Below are positions 49,578 to 57,304 of a DNA stretch of 64,000 nucleotides, one piece after another. The stretch's first letter is position 1; the number at the start of each line of letters is the position of its first letter. The stretch spans positions 1-64,000 of the forward strand of contig NZ_JAAIYP010000004.1 of assembly GCF_011022235.1 (NCBI RefSeq), given 5' to 3'. The notes beneath the pieces are model-generated. The model ran no database searches. It saw only the letters and a list, made by a program, of their open reading frames with translations, and was not told the DNA's origin. The DNA comes from Magnetospirillum aberrantis SpK (GTDB lineage: Bacteria > Pseudomonadota > Alphaproteobacteria > Rhodospirillales > Magnetospirillaceae). The position numbers and the translations under genes were made by a program.

Positions 49578-50287
49578 CCGCACATCTCCACCACGCCATG
49601 GTGCTGGCCGCCGGGCTGGGCCTGCGCATGCGCCCCATCACCGACCACACCCCCAAGCCGCTGGTCGAGGTGGCCGGGCGGACCATGCTGGATCGGGCAC
49701 TGGACCATCTGGCGGTGGCCGGGACCAGCCATCTGGTGGTCAACACCCATTGGCTGGCCGACAAGGTGGCGTCGCACCTGTCGGGCCGTCCCGGCATCAC
49801 CTTGTCACACGAGAGCGAACTGCTGGAAACCGGCGGCGGTGTCGCCAAGGCATTGCCGCATCTGGGAACCGACCCGTTCTATGTGGTCAATTCGGACATC
49901 ATCTGGACCGACGGGGCGGTGCCGGCATTGAAGCGGCTGGCCCTGGCCTGGGACGACGACCGCATGGACGTGCTGTTGCTGTTGACCCCCACCGCCACCG
50001 CCATGGGCTATGACGGACCCGGCGACTTCTTCCTGGACGGGCACGGCCTGCCGCGCCGCCGCCGCGACCGCGAGGTGGCGCCGTTGCTGTTCGCCGGCGT
50101 TCAGATCCTGTCGCCGCGGTTGTTCCAGGACGCGCCATCGGGCAAGTTCTCGTTGAACGTGTTGTACGACCGTGCGTTGGAGGCGGGACGGCTGTCCGCC
50201 ATCGTCCACGACGGCCGCTGGTACCACGTCGGCACCCCCGACGCCCTGCCCCAAGTCGAAGCGGCTATCGAGGCCGAGACACCCTAG
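49574..50287 (+). CDS. murU: N-acetylmuramate-1-phosphate uridylyltransferase (MurU-like)
   Basis: A 237-residue sugar-1-phosphate nucleotidyltransferase. The signature AMVLAAGLGLRMRPITDHTPKPLVEVAGR binds the nucleotide, ETGGGVAKALP contacts the base and VVNSDIIW carries the metal-binding Asp. It would form UDP-MurNAc from MurNAc-1-phosphate, bypassing fosfomycin-sensitive MurA. It overlaps amgK by four bases. A repeat element, not addB, follows immediately. Confidence 0.88.
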   Translation: MTAHLHHAMVLAAGLGLRMRPITDHTPKPLVEVAGRTMLDRALDHLAVAGTSHLVVNTHWLADKVASHLSGRPGITLSHESELLETGGGVAKALPHLGTDPFYVVNSDIIWTDGAVPALKRLALAWDDDRMDVLLLLTPTATAMGYDGPGDFFLDGHGLPRRRRDREVAPLLFAGVQILSPRLFQDAPSGKFSLNVLYDRALEAGRLSAIVHDGRWYHVGTPDALPQVEAAIEAETP

Positions 50288-50293
50288 TGGGGT

Positions 50294-50376
50294 GGTGACA
50301 CGGATGGACACGGATAAACACGGACCAAAAGCAAACGGGGGAACATCCGTGTTCATCCGTGTCCATCCGTGTCACC
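50294..50376. repeat. Gene-less inverted repeat made of ACACGGATRR decamers
   Basis: The left arm (50294-50325) contains three decamers of the type ACACGGATGG/ACACGGATAA, and the right arm (50345-50376) is its reverse complement with two mismatches over 32 bases. A 19-base spacer separates them. The same decamers flank the GxxExxY gene at 53.4-53.8 kb. The copy sits between murU and addB and could fold into a long hairpin, possibly affecting read-through. Confidence 0.9.
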
Positions 50377-50404
50377 TTGATCCGGGCTGTTCGGGGAAGA
50401 CCCC

Positions 50405-53344
50405 ATGACCAATGTCGCGGGCAGGATATTCACCATTCCGCCGGGCATGGCCTTCGTCGATGCCCTGGCCGCCCACCTGTTGGCCGAGGCCGACGGCGAC
50501 CCGTTGCGGCTGGCCGAGATGGAGGTGCTGTTGCCCAACCGCCGCGCCTGCCGCTCCGGGCGTGAGGCGTTTCTGCGGCTGTCTGGCGGCAAGCCCCTGC
50601 TGTTGCCGCGCCTGCGTCCCATGGATGGCGGCGACGGCGACGAGGCGGAATTGTTCGCCGATGGGCCGCTCGACATTCCCCCGGCCATTTCCCCCATCGA
50701 ACGCCACCTGTTGCTGACCCGGCTGGTGCTGGCCATGGGCTCGGGGCGCGGCGGTCTGCCCCCCACCCCCGACCAGGCGGCCCGGCTGGCGGCCGAACTG
50801 GCCGCCCTGTTGGACGCGGTGCAGATCGAGCGCATCGACTTCAGCCGCCTGGAAACCCTGGTGCCCGAGGATTACGCCGAGCACTGGCAGGTGACGCTGA
50901 AGTTCCTGACGATCGTCACCGAATTGTGGCCGGCGCTGTTGGGCGACCGCCTTGATCCGCAGGAACGGATCAACCGCATCCTCGACGCCCAGGCGGCACG
51001 CTGGCGAAGCGATCCGCCCGATACCCCGGTCATCGCCGCCGGCTCCACCGGTTCGCGTCCGGCCAGCGCCGAGTTGATCGCCGTCATCGCCGGCCTGCCG
51101 CGCGGCAAGGTGGTGTTGCCCGGCCTGGACCTTGCCATGGACGAGGCCGCCTGGGCGGCCCTGGACGAAAGCCATCCCCAGTTCGGCATGAAGAAATTGC
51201 TGGCCCATCTGGGGGTGGAACGCCGCGCCGTCCGCCCCCTGGGCCGCGAGCCCGACCCGCGCGGCGCCCGCGCCGCCCTGTTGGCCGAGGCCTTGCGCCC
51301 CGCCGCCACCTGCGAAGCATGGCGCGACATGGGAGAGTTCCCCGCCGCCACCTTGGACGGCGTATCCCGTCTTGACGCCCCCACCCCGCGTGAGGAGGCG
51401 GGCGCCATCGCGCTGATCCTGCGCGAGACGTTGGAAAAGGACGGCCGCACCGCCGCCCTGGTCACCCCCGACCGGACCCTGGCCCGGCGGGTGGCGGCCG
51501 AACTGGAACGCTGGGGACTGGTGATCGACGATTCCGCCGGCCAGCCGCTCGACACCTCGGAACCAGGGTGCTTCCTGCGGCTGTTGGCCGAGATGGTGGC
51601 CGACGATTTCGCGCCGCACGCCACGCTGTCCTGTCTCAAGCATCCGCTGGCGGCGGCGGGCGACGACACCGCCGCCTTCCGCGCCCTGGTGCGGCGGCTG
51701 GAAACCGCCGCCTTGCGCGGGCCGCGCCCAGCCCCCGGCATCGCCGGCCTGAAGGCGGCCGCCAAGGACGGCAAGATCCGCGACGGGCTGGACCGCGTCG
51801 CCGCCGCGCTGGAACCGTTCGTGCGGGTGATGGCGCAAGAGACCGCCCCCCTGGCCGATCTGGTCCGCACCCACATGGAAGCCGCCGAGGCGTTGGCCGC
51901 CACGCCGCTGTTGCCTGGACCGGCGCGGTTGTGGAAGGGCGAGGCGGGCGAGGCCCTGGCCGGCTGGGCCGGCGACCTGACCACCGCCGCCCAAGCGGTG
52001 GGCGCCACCTTCCCGGCCATCCCGCCGCGTTTCTATCCCGCCTTGTTCGAACAGCTCCTGAGCGGCCAGGTGGTGCGCCAGGCCTGGGGCAGCCATCCCC
52101 GGCTGTTCCTGTGGGGCCCCATGGAGGCGCGGCTGCAAAAGGCCGACGTCATGGTGCTGGGCGGCCTGAACGAGGGCACCTGGCCGGGCGAGGCCCAGGC
52201 CGACCCGTGGATGAGCCGCCCCATGCGCGCCGCCTTCGGATTGCCGGCCCCCGAGCGCAAGATCGGATTGGCCGCCCACGATTTCGCCATGGCCTTCGCC
52301 GCGCCGCGGGTGGTGCTGTCGCGGTCCGCCCGCGTCGATGGCACCCCCACCGTACCGGCCCGCTGGCTGCTACGCCTCAAGGCGGTGATGGACGCCGCCG
52401 GCCTGGATTTTGGCGAGGACGCGACCCCTTTCCTCGACTGGCACACCCGTCTCGACCGTCCCGAGGCTTTCGAGCGGGTGGCCCCCCCGGCCCCGCGCCC
52501 GCCGGTCACCGCCCGGCCGCGCAAATTGTCGGTCACCGAGATCGAAACCTGGATGCGCGACCCCTATGGCATCTATGCCAAGCACATCCTGGGGCTTCGC
52601 GCGCTCGACCCCATCGACGCCGATCCCGGTGCCGCCGAATACGGGTCCCTGGTCCACGCCGCCATCGAAACCTTCCTGAACGAGATTTCCGGCCCGTTGC
52701 CGGCCGACGCCGAAACCCGGCTGCTGACCATCGGCCGCGAGGTGTTCGCCGACGTGCTGGACCGGCCCGGCGTGTGGGCGTTCTGGTGGCCGCGCTTCGT
52801 GTCGGTGGCGCGATGGCTGGTGGCGCATGAAAGCGCCCGCCGCGCCGACATCGCCCGAACCCATTGCGAGATCAAGGGCGCGCTTGAAATCGACGCCCCC
52901 GCCGGCCCCTTCCTGCTGCATGCCCGTGCCGACCGTGTGGACGTGCTGCGCGACGGCACGCTGGCGCTGGTCGATTACAAGACCGGCCAACCGCCCAGCC
53001 CGCGCGAAGTGGCCGCCGGCTACGCCCCGCAATTGCCTCTGGAAGCCGCCATCGCCCGCTTCGGCGGGTTCGAGGGCGTCGCCCCGGCCGAGGTCGCGCG
53101 CATGCTCTATTGGCGCCTGAAAGGCGGCGCGGACGGCGGCGAGGAAAAATCGGCCGGCGACAATCCCCGCCAGTTGACCGACCAAGCCATCGAGGGCCTC
53201 AAGGCCCTGGTCGCCACCTTCGACGACGAGCGCACCCCCTATGGCGCCCGCCCGCACCCCGACCGCGCCCCCAAATATTCCGACTACCAACATCTGGCCC
53301 GCATCCGCGAATGGTCAACCGCCGCCGAAGACGCAGAAGAGTGA
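50405..53344 (+). CDS. addB: Double-strand break repair protein AddB
   Basis: A 979-residue helicase-like/nuclease subunit of the AddAB complex, which processes double-strand ends for RecA. The N-terminal part lacks a complete Walker motif, as is usual in alphaproteobacterial AddB. The C-terminal RecB-type nuclease domain is clear: EIETWMRDPYGIYAKHIL, GSLVHAAIE, and the catalytic VDYKTGQ with D857 and K859. The ATG at 50405 follows GGGGAAGA. It is normally directly followed by addA; here a GxxExxY element lies between them. Confidence 0.94.
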   Translation: MTNVAGRIFTIPPGMAFVDALAAHLLAEADGDPLRLAEMEVLLPNRRACRSGREAFLRLSGGKPLLLPRLRPMDGGDGDEAELFADGPLDIPPAISPIERHLLLTRLVLAMGSGRGGLPPTPDQAARLAAELAALLDAVQIERIDFSRLETLVPEDYAEHWQVTLKFLTIVTELWPALLGDRLDPQERINRILDAQAARWRSDPPDTPVIAAGSTGSRPASAELIAVIAGLPRGKVVLPGLDLAMDEAAWAALDESHPQFGMKKLLAHLGVERRAVRPLGREPDPRGARAALLAEALRPAATCEAWRDMGEFPAATLDGVSRLDAPTPREEAGAIALILRETLEKDGRTAALVTPDRTLARRVAAELERWGLVIDDSAGQPLDTSEPGCFLRLLAEMVADDFAPHATLSCLKHPLAAAGDDTAAFRALVRRLETAALRGPRPAPGIAGLKAAAKDGKIRDGLDRVAAALEPFVRVMAQETAPLADLVRTHMEAAEALAATPLLPGPARLWKGEAGEALAGWAGDLTTAAQAVGATFPAIPPRFYPALFEQLLSGQVVRQAWGSHPRLFLWGPMEARLQKADVMVLGGLNEGTWPGEAQADPWMSRPMRAAFGLPAPERKIGLAAHDFAMAFAAPRVVLSRSARVDGTPTVPARWLLRLKAVMDAAGLDFGEDATPFLDWHTRLDRPEAFERVAPPAPRPPVTARPRKLSVTEIETWMRDPYGIYAKHILGLRALDPIDADPGAAEYGSLVHAAIETFLNEISGPLPADAETRLLTIGREVFADVLDRPGVWAFWWPRFVSVARWLVAHESARRADIARTHCEIKGALEIDAPAGPFLLHARADRVDVLRDGTLALVDYKTGQPPSPREVAAGYAPQLPLEAAIARFGGFEGVAPAEVARMLYWRLKGGADGGEEKSAGDNPRQLTDQAIEGLKALVATFDDERTPYGARPHPDRAPKYSDYQHLARIREWSTAAEDAEE

Positions 53345-53350
53345 GGCGGG

Positions 53351-53389
53351 ATGACACGGATGGACACGGACAAACACGGATGAACGGAG
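53351..53389. repeat. Left decamer arm of the GxxExxY element
   Basis: Four ACACGGA-containing decamers in tandem (ATGACACGGA, TGGACACGGA, CAAACACGGA, TGAACGGAG), starting seven bases after the addB stop. The start codon of the GxxExxY gene (53380) lies inside the fourth unit. It is inverted relative to the arm at 53764-53793. Confidence 0.9.
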
Positions 53390-53760
53390 CGCTTCCCCCC
53401 GCCACGGAAAAAATCACCGAAGCGATCATCGGTGCGGCTTTCGAAGTGTCGCGCCTGATGGGGCACGGTTTCCTGGAGGCGGTTTACCGGCGCCCGCTCG
53501 GACACGAGCTCGGACTGTGTGGGCTGAAATGGCGAGAAGAGGTTGCCTACCACCTTGCCTACAAGGGCAACCCCGTCGGCACGTATGTCGCCGACCTGTT
53601 GGTGGAAGACACGGTCATCGTGGAACTGAAGGCCGTGGACGCCCTCAACCCCCAGCACACCGGGCAAGTCCTGAATTATCTCAAGGCAGCCGACCTTACG
53701 GTCGGCCTTCTGCTCAATTTCGGCAAGCCGAGACTGGAAGTGAAAAGGGTGCTGCGATGA
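53380..53760 (+). CDS. GxxExxY family protein (PD-(D/E)XK nuclease fold)
   Basis: A 126-residue protein with the name-giving motif at 30-36 (GFLEAVY). Downstream it shows the PD-(D/E)XK nuclease pattern: D72 in YVADLLVED and E82-x-K84 in VIVELKAVD, then the helix QVLNYLK. All candidate catalytic residues are present, so it is probably an active nuclease-fold protein, although no activity has been assigned to the family as far as I know. The ATG is made by the flanking decamer repeat (CGG-ATG-AAC). The gene with its repeats is wedged between addB and addA, two genes expected to be adjacent. Confidence 0.85.
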   Translation: MNGALPPATEKITEAIIGAAFEVSRLMGHGFLEAVYRRPLGHELGLCGLKWREEVAYHLAYKGNPVGTYVADLLVEDTVIVELKAVDALNPQHTGQVLNYLKAADLTVGLLLNFGKPRLEVKRVLR

Positions 53761-53763
53761 CCC

Positions 53764-53793
53764 GTCCGTGTTCATCCGTGTTCATCCGTGTCC
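53764..53793. repeat. Right decamer arm of the GxxExxY element
   Basis: Three tandem units reading CCGTGTTCAT (GTCCGTG-TTCATCCGTG-TTCATCCGTG-TCC), the reverse complement of the left-arm decamers. It begins within four bases of the GxxExxY stop and ends 22 bases before the addA start. Confidence 0.9.
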
Positions 53794-53815
53794 TTCCTCT
53801 GTTGGGGGGCCGTTC

Positions 53816-56800
53816 ATGACAGATCCCTCGTCCTCCGCCCTTTTGGACGACGCCGCGTCGCGGCAGCGCCGTGCCGCCGATCCCGAGGCGTCGGTGTGGG
53901 TGGGCGCCTCGGCCGGCACCGGCAAGACCAAGGTGTTGACCGACCGGGTGCTGACCCTGTTGCTGGCCGGCACCGCGCCGCACCGCATCTTGTGCCTGAC
54001 CTTCACCAAGGCCGCCGCCGCCGAGATGAGCAACCGCATCAACGAGCGGCTGGCGAAATGGGCCACGGCCCCCGATTCCGCCCTGGCCGGAGACCTGTTC
54101 AGGCTGTTGGGCCGCACCCCGGACGAGGGCACCATGATCAGCGCGCGGCGGCTGTTCGCCCGCGTGCTCGACGTGCCGGGCGGCATGCATATCGAAACCA
54201 TCCACGCCTTTTGCCAATCGCTGTTGCGCCGCTTTCCGCTGGAAGCCGGGCTGGCGCCGCACTTCCAGGTGATGGACGACCGCGACGCCGGCGAATTGCT
54301 GGAGGAAGCCAAGGAAGAAATCCTGTCGCGCGCCCGTGGCGCCGCCGAGGGCGGCGTGGCCGACATGGCGCTGGCCGACGCCTTGGCCGACGTCACCGGC
54401 CGGGTCCACGAAAGCGCCTTTCCCGAACTGATGGCCGAATTGTCGGCGGAACGCGGCCGTCTGAAACGTCTGCTCGACACCCATGGCGGCATGGTGGGGG
54501 TGGTCGCGGCGGTGCGCGCCCGGCTTGGCCTCGCCGATGGCGACACCCCCGAAACCATCGTGGCGCGGGCCTGCGACGACGGTTCCTTCGACGGCGACGG
54601 GCTGCGCCACGCCATGGCGGCGTTGCTGAACGGGTCAAAGACGGACGTCGAACGCGGCCAGATTCTGGACCGCTGGCTGGCCGACCCGGACGGGCGGACG
54701 GCACGCTTCGCCGCCTATCGTCTGGCGTTCCTGACCGCCACCGACGGCACCGTCCGCAAGACGTTGTGCACCAAGAAAGTGGCCGAGCTTCCCGGCGTGC
54801 AGGCCGCGCTCGAGGCCGAGGCGGAACGTCTGGTCCGGGTGTCGGACCGGCTGAAATCGGCCACCATCGCCACCGCCACCGGCCATTTGCTGACCCTGGG
54901 CCACGCCTTGCTGGCCGCTTACGAACGGCGCAAGCAGGGCCGGGCGCTGATGGATTACGACGATCTGATCCTGGCGGCGCGCGAGCTTCTGGCCCGGCCC
55001 GGCGTCGCACCATGGGTGCTGTACAAGCTGGACGGCGGCATCGACCATGTGCTGATCGACGAGGCCCAGGACACCAACCCCGACCAATGGGCGGTGGTGG
55101 CGGCGCTGACCGAGGAGTTCTTCGCCGGACGCGGCGCCCGCGAGACGATCCGTACGGTGTTCGCGGTGGGCGACGTCAAGCAATCCATCTATTCGTTCCA
55201 GCGCGCCGACCCCAAGGCCTTCGACGCCATGCGCCGGCTGTTCGCCGAGCATGTCCCGCAAGCCGGCGGCAAATGGGCGGAAATCCCCCTGAACCTGTCG
55301 TTCCGTTCGGGCTGGGCGGTGTTGCGTGCGGTCAACGCGGTGTTCGCCCCCGACAGTCCGGCGCGCGACGGCGTCGCCGGCGCCGACGAGGACATCACCC
55401 ACCTGGCTTTCCGCACTGGCTCCGCCGGCCGGGTCGAGGTGTGGCCGCCGGTGGAACCGCGCGCCGCCGACGAGGTGGCGCCGTGGAAGCCGCCCGTCGA
55501 GCGCATCAGCGGCGATTCCCCGCGCACCCGGCTGGCCCGGCTGGTGGCCCGGCGGATCAAGGCCATGGTCGGCCGCGAGACCCTGCCCAGCCACGGCCGC
55601 CCCGTCCGGGCCGGCGACGTCATGGTGTTGCTGCGCCGGCGCGGGTCGTTCGTCGAGGATCTGGTGCGCGAGCTCAAGGTGCTGGAAGTGCCGGTGGCCG
55701 GCGCCGACCGCATGGTGCTGACCGAACAGATGGCGGTCATGGACCTGATGGCGCTGGGCAACTTCCTGATCCTGCCCGACGACGACCTGACCCTGGCGAC
55801 CGTGCTCAAGGGACCACTGGTGGGGCTGAGCGAGGAGGAGTTGTTCCGGCTGGCCTGGGGACGAGGCCGGGCGGGATTGTGGGACACCCTGCGCCGCCGC
55901 GCCGGCGAGGAGGAGGCGTTCGGCCGTGCCTTCGACACCCTGTCCGGGTTGTTGTCCAAGGTCGACCGGCTGTCGCCGCACGCCCTTTACGCCCAGGTGC
56001 TGGGGCCGTTGGGCGGCAAGCGCCGCCTGCTGGCGCGGCTGGGTCTCGAGGCCGAGGACCCGCTGGACGAGTTCATGTCGCTGACGCTGGCCTATGAACA
56101 AGGCCGCGCGCCCAGTCTTCAGGGCTTCCTGCATTGGCTGGAAACCGGCGCGGTCGAAATCAAGCGCGACCTGGAACAAGGCGGGCGCGACGCCGTGCGC
56201 ATCATGACCGTGCACGGCTCCAAGGGACTTCAGGCGCCGGTCGTCTTCCTGCCCGACACGTTGCAGACGCCAACCCAAGGCTCACGCCTGCTGTGGCTGG
56301 ACGACGACCTGTTGCTGTGGCCGCCGCGCGCCGAAATGAACGACGCGGTGGCCCAGGCGGGACGCGACGCCCAGAAGCTGGCGCGGGAACGGGAATACCG
56401 CCGTCTGCTTTACGTCGCCATGACCCGTGCCGAGGACCGGCTGGTGGTGTGCGGCTGGCAGACCAAGCGCGCCGCCCCCCAGGGGTGCTGGTACAACCTG
56501 ACCCGCGAGGCGCTGGCCCCCGTCGCCGCCGAAATCGAGGACCCGTTCCTGGCGGCGCAAGGGGAAACCTCCGATGCCCGTATCCTGGTGACCGAATGCC
56601 CCCAGGACGGCCCCCCCGACCGCGAGGCGAAGACGGCCACCACCCGCCCCCCTGCCGCCGGCCCGCTGCCGTCCTGGGTGACGGCCCAGGCGCCGAACGA
56701 ACCGGCGCCGCCGCGCCCGCTGGCGCCGTCGCGTCCCGACGGCGAAGAACCGGCCGCCCGCTCGCCGCTGAGCGGCGGCGCCGACACCCGCCGCTTCGCC

Positions 56801-57304
56801 CGTGGCAAGCTGATCCACAAGCTGTTGCAAACCCTGCCCGACATCGCCCCGGCCCAGCGCGCGGCGGCGGCCATGCGCTATCTGGCCAAGGCGGGACGGG
56901 AATTCGACGCCGCCGAACGAATCGCCATCGCCAACGAGGTCCAGACCGTGCTGGACCACCCCGCCTTCGCGCCGCTGTTCGCACCGGGCAGCCGGGCCGA
57001 GGTGCCCATCGTCGGCGTGGTGGACGAAACCCGCGTCATCGCCGGCCAGGTGGACCGGCTGGTGGTCACCGACAGCGAGGTTCTGGTGGTCGATTACAAG
57101 ACCAACCGCCGGCCGCCGGTGGACCCGGCCGACATTCCGGCCGTCTATGTCCATCAGATGGCTGCCTATCATCTGGCTTTGTCGTGCATCTATCCGGGCC
57201 GCGCGGTGCGCTGCGCCCTGGTGTGGACCGACGGCCCCCGTCTGATGGAGGTCGAACGGAGCAGAATGGACGACGTTTTGGCCGGAATGATGACGCAGCG
57301 ATAA
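53816..57304 (+). CDS. addA: Double-strand break repair helicase/nuclease AddA
   Basis: A 1,162-residue UvrD-type helicase fused to a RecB-type nuclease. Walker A is VGASAGTGKTKVL (about 28-40) and Walker B is VLIDEAQDTNPDQW. Late helicase motifs include MTVHGSKGLQAPVVFLPDT and RLLYVAMTRAEDRLVV. The C-terminal nuclease has LVVDYKTNRRPP (D1093, K1095). The ATG at 53816 after GGGGGG is chosen; the open frame continues upstream only through the repeat arm, giving a spurious FIRVHPCPS leader. Confidence 0.95.
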   Translation: MTDPSSSALLDDAASRQRRAADPEASVWVGASAGTGKTKVLTDRVLTLLLAGTAPHRILCLTFTKAAAAEMSNRINERLAKWATAPDSALAGDLFRLLGRTPDEGTMISARRLFARVLDVPGGMHIETIHAFCQSLLRRFPLEAGLAPHFQVMDDRDAGELLEEAKEEILSRARGAAEGGVADMALADALADVTGRVHESAFPELMAELSAERGRLKRLLDTHGGMVGVVAAVRARLGLADGDTPETIVARACDDGSFDGDGLRHAMAALLNGSKTDVERGQILDRWLADPDGRTARFAAYRLAFLTATDGTVRKTLCTKKVAELPGVQAALEAEAERLVRVSDRLKSATIATATGHLLTLGHALLAAYERRKQGRALMDYDDLILAARELLARPGVAPWVLYKLDGGIDHVLIDEAQDTNPDQWAVVAALTEEFFAGRGARETIRTVFAVGDVKQSIYSFQRADPKAFDAMRRLFAEHVPQAGGKWAEIPLNLSFRSGWAVLRAVNAVFAPDSPARDGVAGADEDITHLAFRTGSAGRVEVWPPVEPRAADEVAPWKPPVERISGDSPRTRLARLVARRIKAMVGRETLPSHGRPVRAGDVMVLLRRRGSFVEDLVRELKVLEVPVAGADRMVLTEQMAVMDLMALGNFLILPDDDLTLATVLKGPLVGLSEEELFRLAWGRGRAGLWDTLRRRAGEEEAFGRAFDTLSGLLSKVDRLSPHALYAQVLGPLGGKRRLLARLGLEAEDPLDEFMSLTLAYEQGRAPSLQGFLHWLETGAVEIKRDLEQGGRDAVRIMTVHGSKGLQAPVVFLPDTLQTPTQGSRLLWLDDDLLLWPPRAEMNDAVAQAGRDAQKLAREREYRRLLYVAMTRAEDRLVVCGWQTKRAAPQGCWYNLTREALAPVAAEIEDPFLAAQGETSDARILVTECPQDGPPDREAKTATTRPPAAGPLPSWVTAQAPNEPAPPRPLAPSRPDGEEPAARSPLSGGADTRRFARGKLIHKLLQTLPDIAPAQRAAAAMRYLAKAGREFDAAERIAIANEVQTVLDHPAFAPLFAPGSRAEVPIVGVVDETRVIAGQVDRLVVTDSEVLVVDYKTNRRPPVDPADIPAVYVHQMAAYHLALSCIYPGRAVRCALVWTDGPRLMEVERSRMDDVLAGMMTQR

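Follow-up and report, generated by a model that had tools for sequence, protein, structure and literature searches.

Introduction

Among described systems, the closest to the one reported here are REPINs and their RAYT partners. As far as the accessible parts of the sources describe them, these are short inverted-repeat doublets that can form hairpins, are dispersed and are tied to a specific gene, and their recognition pairs co-evolve (PMC3116915, PMC8266576). The locus considered here lies in the window, by which we mean the whole 64,000-nucleotide stretch of Magnetospirillum aberrantis SpK DNA that was analysed (contig NZ_JAAIYP010000004.1, positions 1 to 64,000). In it, a gene for a small GxxExxY protein stands between inverted decamer repeats at the junction of addB and addA.

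PD-(D/E)XK enzymes hydrolyse DNA, and a QxxxY motif marks their Cas4/lambda exonuclease/RecB branch; Cas4 itself features a four-cysteine Fe-S cluster. To our knowledge, no PD-(D/E)XK enzyme is known to join strands alone. A search of the openly licensed PMC literature, a scope outside which most subscription papers and bioRxiv preprints fall, returned no description of a partnership between GxxExxY genes and repeats.

Results

The unit is bordered by two host genes that serve here only as markers, addB upstream (50405-53344, + strand) and addA downstream (53816-57304, + strand, ATG picked by eye). Pattern matching and arm alignment place three tandem decamers, ACACGGATGG, ACACGGACAA and ACACGGATGA, in a left arm at 53354-53383 (+ strand). 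Those at 53354-53363 and 53374-53383 are exact, the one at 53364-53373 (ACACGGACAA) has one mismatch, and the decamer type of the window's arms is ACACGGAT. The last decamer supplies the ATG (53380-53382) of an open reading frame of 126 codons plus TGA (53380-53760, + strand), which by its profile matches and structural model encodes a GxxExxY protein of 126 aa with a predicted minimal Cas4/lambda-exo-like PD-(D/E)XK nuclease fold. The right arm (53765-53791, - strand) comprises one partial and two exact inverted decamers: the partial unit begins at 53765, four bases past the stop, and the reverse-complement decamers occupy 53772-53781 and 53782-53791. Complementarity between the arms is 85% over 33 nt and 89% over 28 nt, and no second gene was found among the ORFs of the window unit between its arms. 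The original prediction had read just this layout from the sequence (tandem ACACGGATRR decamers supplying the start codon, their reverse complement within four bases of the stop, and no other cargo), and each of these points was confirmed.

The motif ACACGGATRR occurs 8 times in the window against 0.42 expected, and none of 100 shuffles got to 8. We rejected a chance or compositional artefact, since the reversed pattern has 0 matches in the same genome against 51 real ones; the control ORFs described below also speak against it. Terminators were rejected as well: a scan of 50150-53900 returned two terminator-like sites, neither at the arms. Mechanical ORFs run through the repeats (49805-50356, - strand, and 53768-53815, + strand, of the window; strings such as MNTD..., ...SIRVTT and MFIRVHPCPS) and could give rise to false proteins and put the start of addA too far upstream.

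The window protein is a plain member of the TIGR04256 GxxExxY / PF13366 PDDEXK_3 family, matching TIGR04256 at E 1.5e-39 (134.9 bits, cut-off 35) and PF13366 at E 9e-38 (129.7 bits, cut-off 22). Across 43 aligned sequences (the window protein and 42 relatives), E33, D72, E82 and K84 are invariant, which bears out the D...ExK residues that had been noticed at the outset, and Q96 and Y100 are conserved at 90% or more; we take these six to be the residues of a Cas4/lambda-exo/RecB-type active site. The AlphaFold2 model has a mean pLDDT of 96.1, and its best solved Foldseek matches are Cas4 SSO0001 (E 3.3e-4), LHK-Exo, lambda exonuclease, AddAB and ACE1 (E 0.015). The top eight include 4ic1, 3syy, 6m9k and 4ceh, three matches have E of at most 0.001, and TM-scores are modest (0.54 by query for the best match, at E 3.3e-4). 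Together, the predicted fold and these residues place the protein in the QxxxY branch of PD-(D/E)XK nucleases. Sequence comparison with the PDB gave no significant relative (best E 0.26 and 1.6), and profile searches found no partner domain in the 126 aa. There is a single Cys and therefore no four-Cys cluster of the Cas4 type, which sets the protein apart from Cas4 proper.

Three other identities were tried and rejected. PADLOC matches to known defence genes were weak (best E 0.0069). As phage cargo, the gene had no phage match and no PHROG, and two queries gave no relative on viral contigs. As plasmid cargo, 8 plasmid records were obtained, every one below 60% identity. At two loci of relatives (L067 and L074) the GxxExxY domain starts a longer protein of about 260 aa; no matching arms were found around the gene there, and a palindrome lies upstream.

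We then compared loci of relatives, taken as best-scoring matches and not as a random draw: 52 from many phyla, 29 from the window's family and 30 from its phylum. An inverted repeat with a score of at least 16, a measure that presupposes no motif (flavour assignments do), spans the gene at 28/52, 21/29 and 19/30 of these loci, against 1/495, 0/73 and 0/34 control ORFs of the same loci. Overall this gives 68/111 loci (67/110 with L033/L108 counted once) against 1/602 control ORFs, the latter being mechanical, mutually overlapping and not independent. Arm sequence varies by locus. The usual scheme is a tandem of C-R-C-N-R-A-K units 8, 9 or 10 bp apart, mostly in three copies; other arm schemes occur, for example GACAGGATAACAGGAT (L042, L045). 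Eight variants, or flavours, were found around at least six genes each.

The decamer had been proposed as something to look for on both sides of GxxExxY genes at large. As a fixed signature of the whole family, the exact ACACGGAT decamer was rejected, being one of the eight flavours that differ between loci. The refuting condition set in the original prediction, a lack of the decamers at most GxxExxY genes, thus holds to the letter, but it overlooks equivalent repeats, which are common: of 143 distinct GxxExxY units, 77 have inward-pointing tandem C-R-C-N-R-A-K arms on both sides, as against none of 647 control ORFs. Any tandem motif within 180 bp was found for 111 of these units (controls, 58/647) and not found for the other 32. 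Three loci are present twice (L033/L108, L032/L214, L034/L220), and 77/143 is the count with doubles removed (79/145 before). From the 136-protein tree, the 647-control comparison, the spacing counts and the flavour count, L108 is excluded; the L032/L214 and L034/L220 doubles are still included there. Unit spacing goes with the last motif base: of 162 T-type pairs, 144 are spaced at 10 bp, and of 244 G-type pairs, 215 are spaced at 8-9 bp. The gene is present in 31/55 genomes of the window's family and in 58/299 sampled genomes of its phylum. At one locus (L082), a C-terminal gene remnant directly follows an arm and resembles an internal deletion derivative between the gene-bearing and gene-less forms.

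Within the window, the remaining four of the eight decamers make up a gene-less palindromic element of the same flavour as the gene unit (50298-50372, no strand assigned; arms 50298-50324 and 50346-50372, 21-nt spacer). It lies across addB from the gene unit, between addB and an upstream gene that by eye resembles a nucleotidyltransferase. Together with a few flanking bases it gives an RNA fold of -57.8 kcal/mol (z -8.9), and a hairpin of about 30 base pairs is predicted for it. The original description of the repeats was thus right for the gene unit and missed many gene-less copies, this one included. The whole genome (4.15 Mb) has one GxxExxY gene, whereas the double decamer with at most one mismatch has 51 matches, which group by position into 16 sites: the gene unit, 11 gene-less both-strand sites and 4 with matches on a single strand only. 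In the best-kept copies, the gene-less arms run from an outer ACACGGATGG through ACACGGATRA to ACACGGAT. Their spacers are short and, by eye, seemingly unrelated to one another in this genome, so the elements do not appear to be simple recent copies. All 12 gene-less elements examined have the edge of an ORF of at least 150 aa within 32 bp on at least one side, and mechanical ORFs of at least 60 aa, real and spurious ones unsorted, cross 8 of the 12.

Gene and gene-less repeats also go together between genomes. Of the 31 family genomes with the gene, 20 contain the double ACACGRAT decamer, compared with 3 of the 24 that lack the gene (p = 1.1e-4). Arm flavour was read for 64 of 76 family gene matches (12 partial ones left out), and 55 were assignable; left and right arms agree in 35/39 two-sided family units (permuted mean 5.9, largest 16). 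Gene-less repeats were counted in 55 family genomes for five flavour patterns (GGAT and GAAT pooled), with matches within 300 bp of units subtracted. Repeats of the resident-arm flavour have a median of 18 (46 cells), whereas the 94 unmatched cells from these genomes have a median of 1 (p = 2.9e-10); none of 5000 permutations within genomes reached the observed match. G024 has three genes: the first has GAAT arms, the second AGAG arms, and the third, at the end of a contig, has no arms that could be read. The gene-less elements of this genome are of GAAT, AGAG and GGAT types.

The pairing has exceptions. No GxxExxY gene was found in G021, G012 and G039, which carry 45 AGAG, 54 CAAG and 34 GAAG matches, respectively; these are either orphan populations or genes missed in drafts. 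G025 has 71 AGAG matches but an AGAT unit. Background also enters some counts: the reversed AGAG control is not zero, reaching 22 matches (G029; real pattern 85), and CACCAAG pairs occur in 46/55 family genomes, often with 1-5 matches. At the end of one contig (G024:C62, L169) the sequence breaks within repeats right after addB; given this break, copies may be undercounted in draft genomes. Outside the family we used 47 of the 52 many-phyla loci (L032, L033, L034, L052 and L083 left out), in 46 genomes. The difference between AGAG-unit genomes and the others (7 vs 39) was weak there (p = 0.038), with strong counterexamples of 174, 83, 67, 65 and 35 AGAG matches, perhaps because usually one gene per genome is known in that set.

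As judged from sequence comparison, flavour tracks the nuclease more than the host. We used a quick tree of 136 proteins, 109 of which have an assigned flavour; it has many unresolved forks and includes L095 and L100 in the wrong frame. On it the last motif base (G/T) changes 4 times against a shuffled mean of 34, and the whole flavour 30 times against 74. Candidate residues that vary along with the last motif base include those at the NFG/NFN site. For the 54 family units on the tree, the host genome changes 47 times and flavour 13. A tree-free comparison of best matches, with the L095 and L100 frames corrected and doubles removed, agrees with the tree. The last base is shared with the best match in another genome in 105/107 cases, and in 104/107 when matches are held below 55% identity (56 expected). 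Whole-flavour agreement falls from 74/107 uncapped to 53/107 below 70% identity and 12/107 below 55% (13 expected); before doubles were removed, the same five counts were 108, 107, 77, 55 and 11 of 110. By this dependence on identity, the last base and the unit spacing belong to deep enzyme clades, and the two middle bases drift faster. Because gene and arms are linked, simple co-inheritance accounts for part of the agreement between flavour and enzyme, but not for the pairing in trans.

We also looked at orthologous junctions. In three genomes of the same genus (G023, G027, G031), addB and addA are tight with no unit between them. The empty-site check suggested in the original prediction therefore found such sites, which supports a discrete, insertable unit. 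The junction holds GGAT-type units in G000, G020, G028 and G029 and AGAT-type units in G025 and G026. As the AGAT units fall in a clade of their own flavour, at least two arrivals at addB-addA are suggested. The names of four further junctions (carA-carB, metF-metH, accD-trpA and truB-rbfA) were checked on G020/G024 flanks. At carA-carB, G000 and G020 have GGAT gene-less palindromes and G024 an AGAG gene unit, the element is absent in G022, G023 and G027, and G031 has an apparent remnant; GAAG gene units of G036, G043 and G046 appear at this junction too (flanks matched by eye). At metF-metH, GGAT elements are found in G000 and G020 and AGAG elements in G024 and G027, with spacers related by eye, and the junction is empty in G022, G023 and G031.

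Flanks of the empty or differently filled junctions are 74-99% identical, and intergenic DNA beside elements usually differs between relatives too. Identity between G020 and G024 is 92.7% around addB, and the junction replacements therefore look recent. Taken together, presence and absence at these junctions support mobility of the unit, as read from the genome comparisons. Inspection by eye of the gene-less sites that we read, among which there was no clean filled/empty pair, showed no target-site duplication. Unrelated REP-like palindromes (of the CCCGCGAAAGCGGG type and others) occur at the same junctions (L300 in G022; L308 and L309 in G020), so these junctions may be general landing places. 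Longer composites with the same decamers were observed in G020 and G024 (L244, L248, L252, L254, L256), several of them framed by outer inverted repeats resembling CCAGCCGCA/TGCGGCTGG and containing a small inverted segment, rich in GC, between decamers.

Discussion

We lean towards a REPIN/RAYT-like system in which a PD-(D/E)XK nuclease takes the place of the HuH transposase and drives movement, a reading that we hold to be somewhat probable. On this view, short palindromic elements form a family of which the unit is the member that carries the gene. The two arms of an element face each other, and in each arm a handful of C-R-C-N-R-A-K units, mostly three, follow in tandem at a distance of roughly one DNA turn or a little under. 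Both in cis and in trans, the minimal nuclease would recognise its own arm flavour, as RAYT does with REP/REPIN. In single-stranded DNA during replication or repair the arms may fold back as a hairpin or cruciform; nuclease subunits would then bind to the tandem units and make a cut at the base of the arm. Once released or copied, the element would be joined by host repair at a different intercistronic break, and no target duplication would result. Binding, cutting, the single-strand intermediate, rejoining and mobilisation are all steps that we infer.

Some of the same observations could be produced by a nuclease that moves nothing. A domesticated housekeeping enzyme might bind or trim the palindromes, controlling cruciforms or mRNA hairpins at operon junctions, with the repeats spread otherwise and kept by selection. 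The very strong hairpin, the position of elements between neighbouring genes (e.g., carA-carB, accD-trpA, metF-metH, addB-addA) and the G024 and G027 elements, whose spacers differ and whose arm flavour is kept, would suit such a role. Against it, the gene is present in only 31/55 family and 58/299 sampled phylum genomes, and flavour follows the nuclease across genera (47 host changes against 13 of flavour over 54 units); we therefore regard it as unlikely. It is very improbable that another enzyme moves the repeats and that the nuclease gene is a captured passenger with no role of its own. Orphan repeat families without a GxxExxY gene and other REP-like palindromes at the same junctions (S2 in G022, S10 in G020) would fit that account, but agreement of the last base below 55% protein identity (104/107) and the flavour match in trans are not expected of cargo, and the window unit has no second gene between its arms.

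A homing-like parasite would make the gene-less palindromes its targets: the nuclease would cut its own flavour, and repair from the gene copy, with the ~30-bp arms as homology, would put the gene into the spacer. Three observations agree with this: the arms around the gene resemble the arms of gene-less palindromes, flavours match in trans within the family, and at L082 a gene remnant adjoins an arm. We nevertheless find it distinctly unlikely, as one gene stands alongside 11 gene-less both-strand sites in this genome, the carA-carB gene unit (AGAG, G024) differs in flavour from the gene-less palindromes there (GGAT, G000 and G020), and arrival of gene-less palindromes at new junctions would be left unexplained. 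Of the original reading as a minimal mobile or homing-like unit, the gene within inverted repeats is accordingly real and common in the family, and an insertable unit is supported; the ratio of gene to gene-less sites and the mixed flavours at one junction tell against the homing-like part.

Carrying the REPIN/RAYT-like reading further, we tentatively suggest, as a generalization that falls short of being probable, that miniature mobile elements of a widespread class owe their movement to a stand-alone Cas4-like PD-(D/E)XK nuclease, with no transposase involved. Their enzyme-repeat pairs would diversify by a readable C-R-C-N-R-A-K code, in which deep protein clade would fix the last base and the spacing, and more recent changes the N-R bases. 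If true, this would suggest a function for the unassigned GxxExxY nuclease family and would provide an enzyme partner for the repeat families CACAGAGG, CACGAAGG, ACACGGAT and others found beside GxxExxY genes in bacteria of many phyla. Systems of the REPIN kind would then have arisen more than once, on the basis of unrelated enzymes. Since enzyme-repeat pairs come in a natural variety, the way in which a minimal nuclease recognises DNA can be tested directly.

Among known systems, the window protein is a plain member of TIGR04256/PF13366; the one-line family descriptions name neither a repeat nor a role, and the repeat partnership is added here. With Cas4, lambda exonuclease and the RecB-AddB nuclease domain it shares the predicted fold and the catalytic residues, including Q-x-x-x-Y, and it differs from them in its 126 aa, its single Cys and the lack of any partner domain found. 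A homing endonuclease element would have its gene inserted in its own recognition site and would cut empty alleles; as regards this comparison, the window gene lies between a pair of arms, and empty junctions exist. BrickBuilt, as described in the accessible part of its source, is a different element (PMC4596501). MITEs are similarly short and gene-less with inverted terminal repeats, but here no target duplication was seen by eye at the gene-less sites read, interiors seem by eye to be unrelated between copies and no DDE transposase parent was seen. The likeness is greatest with REPIN/RAYT (TnpA-REP), as far as its accessible descriptions go, since here too dispersed, hairpin-forming inverted doublets accompany a cognate gene, at the family level and weakly beyond it. 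The enzyme here is a PD-(D/E)XK nuclease and there a HuH/Y1 tyrosine transposase, and the arms here are tandem 8-10 bp units, in contrast to single stem-loops next to a GTAG-like motif. Lacking a HuH enzyme, the GxxExxY system is therefore not a member of REPIN/RAYT, though by analogy it may well work like one.
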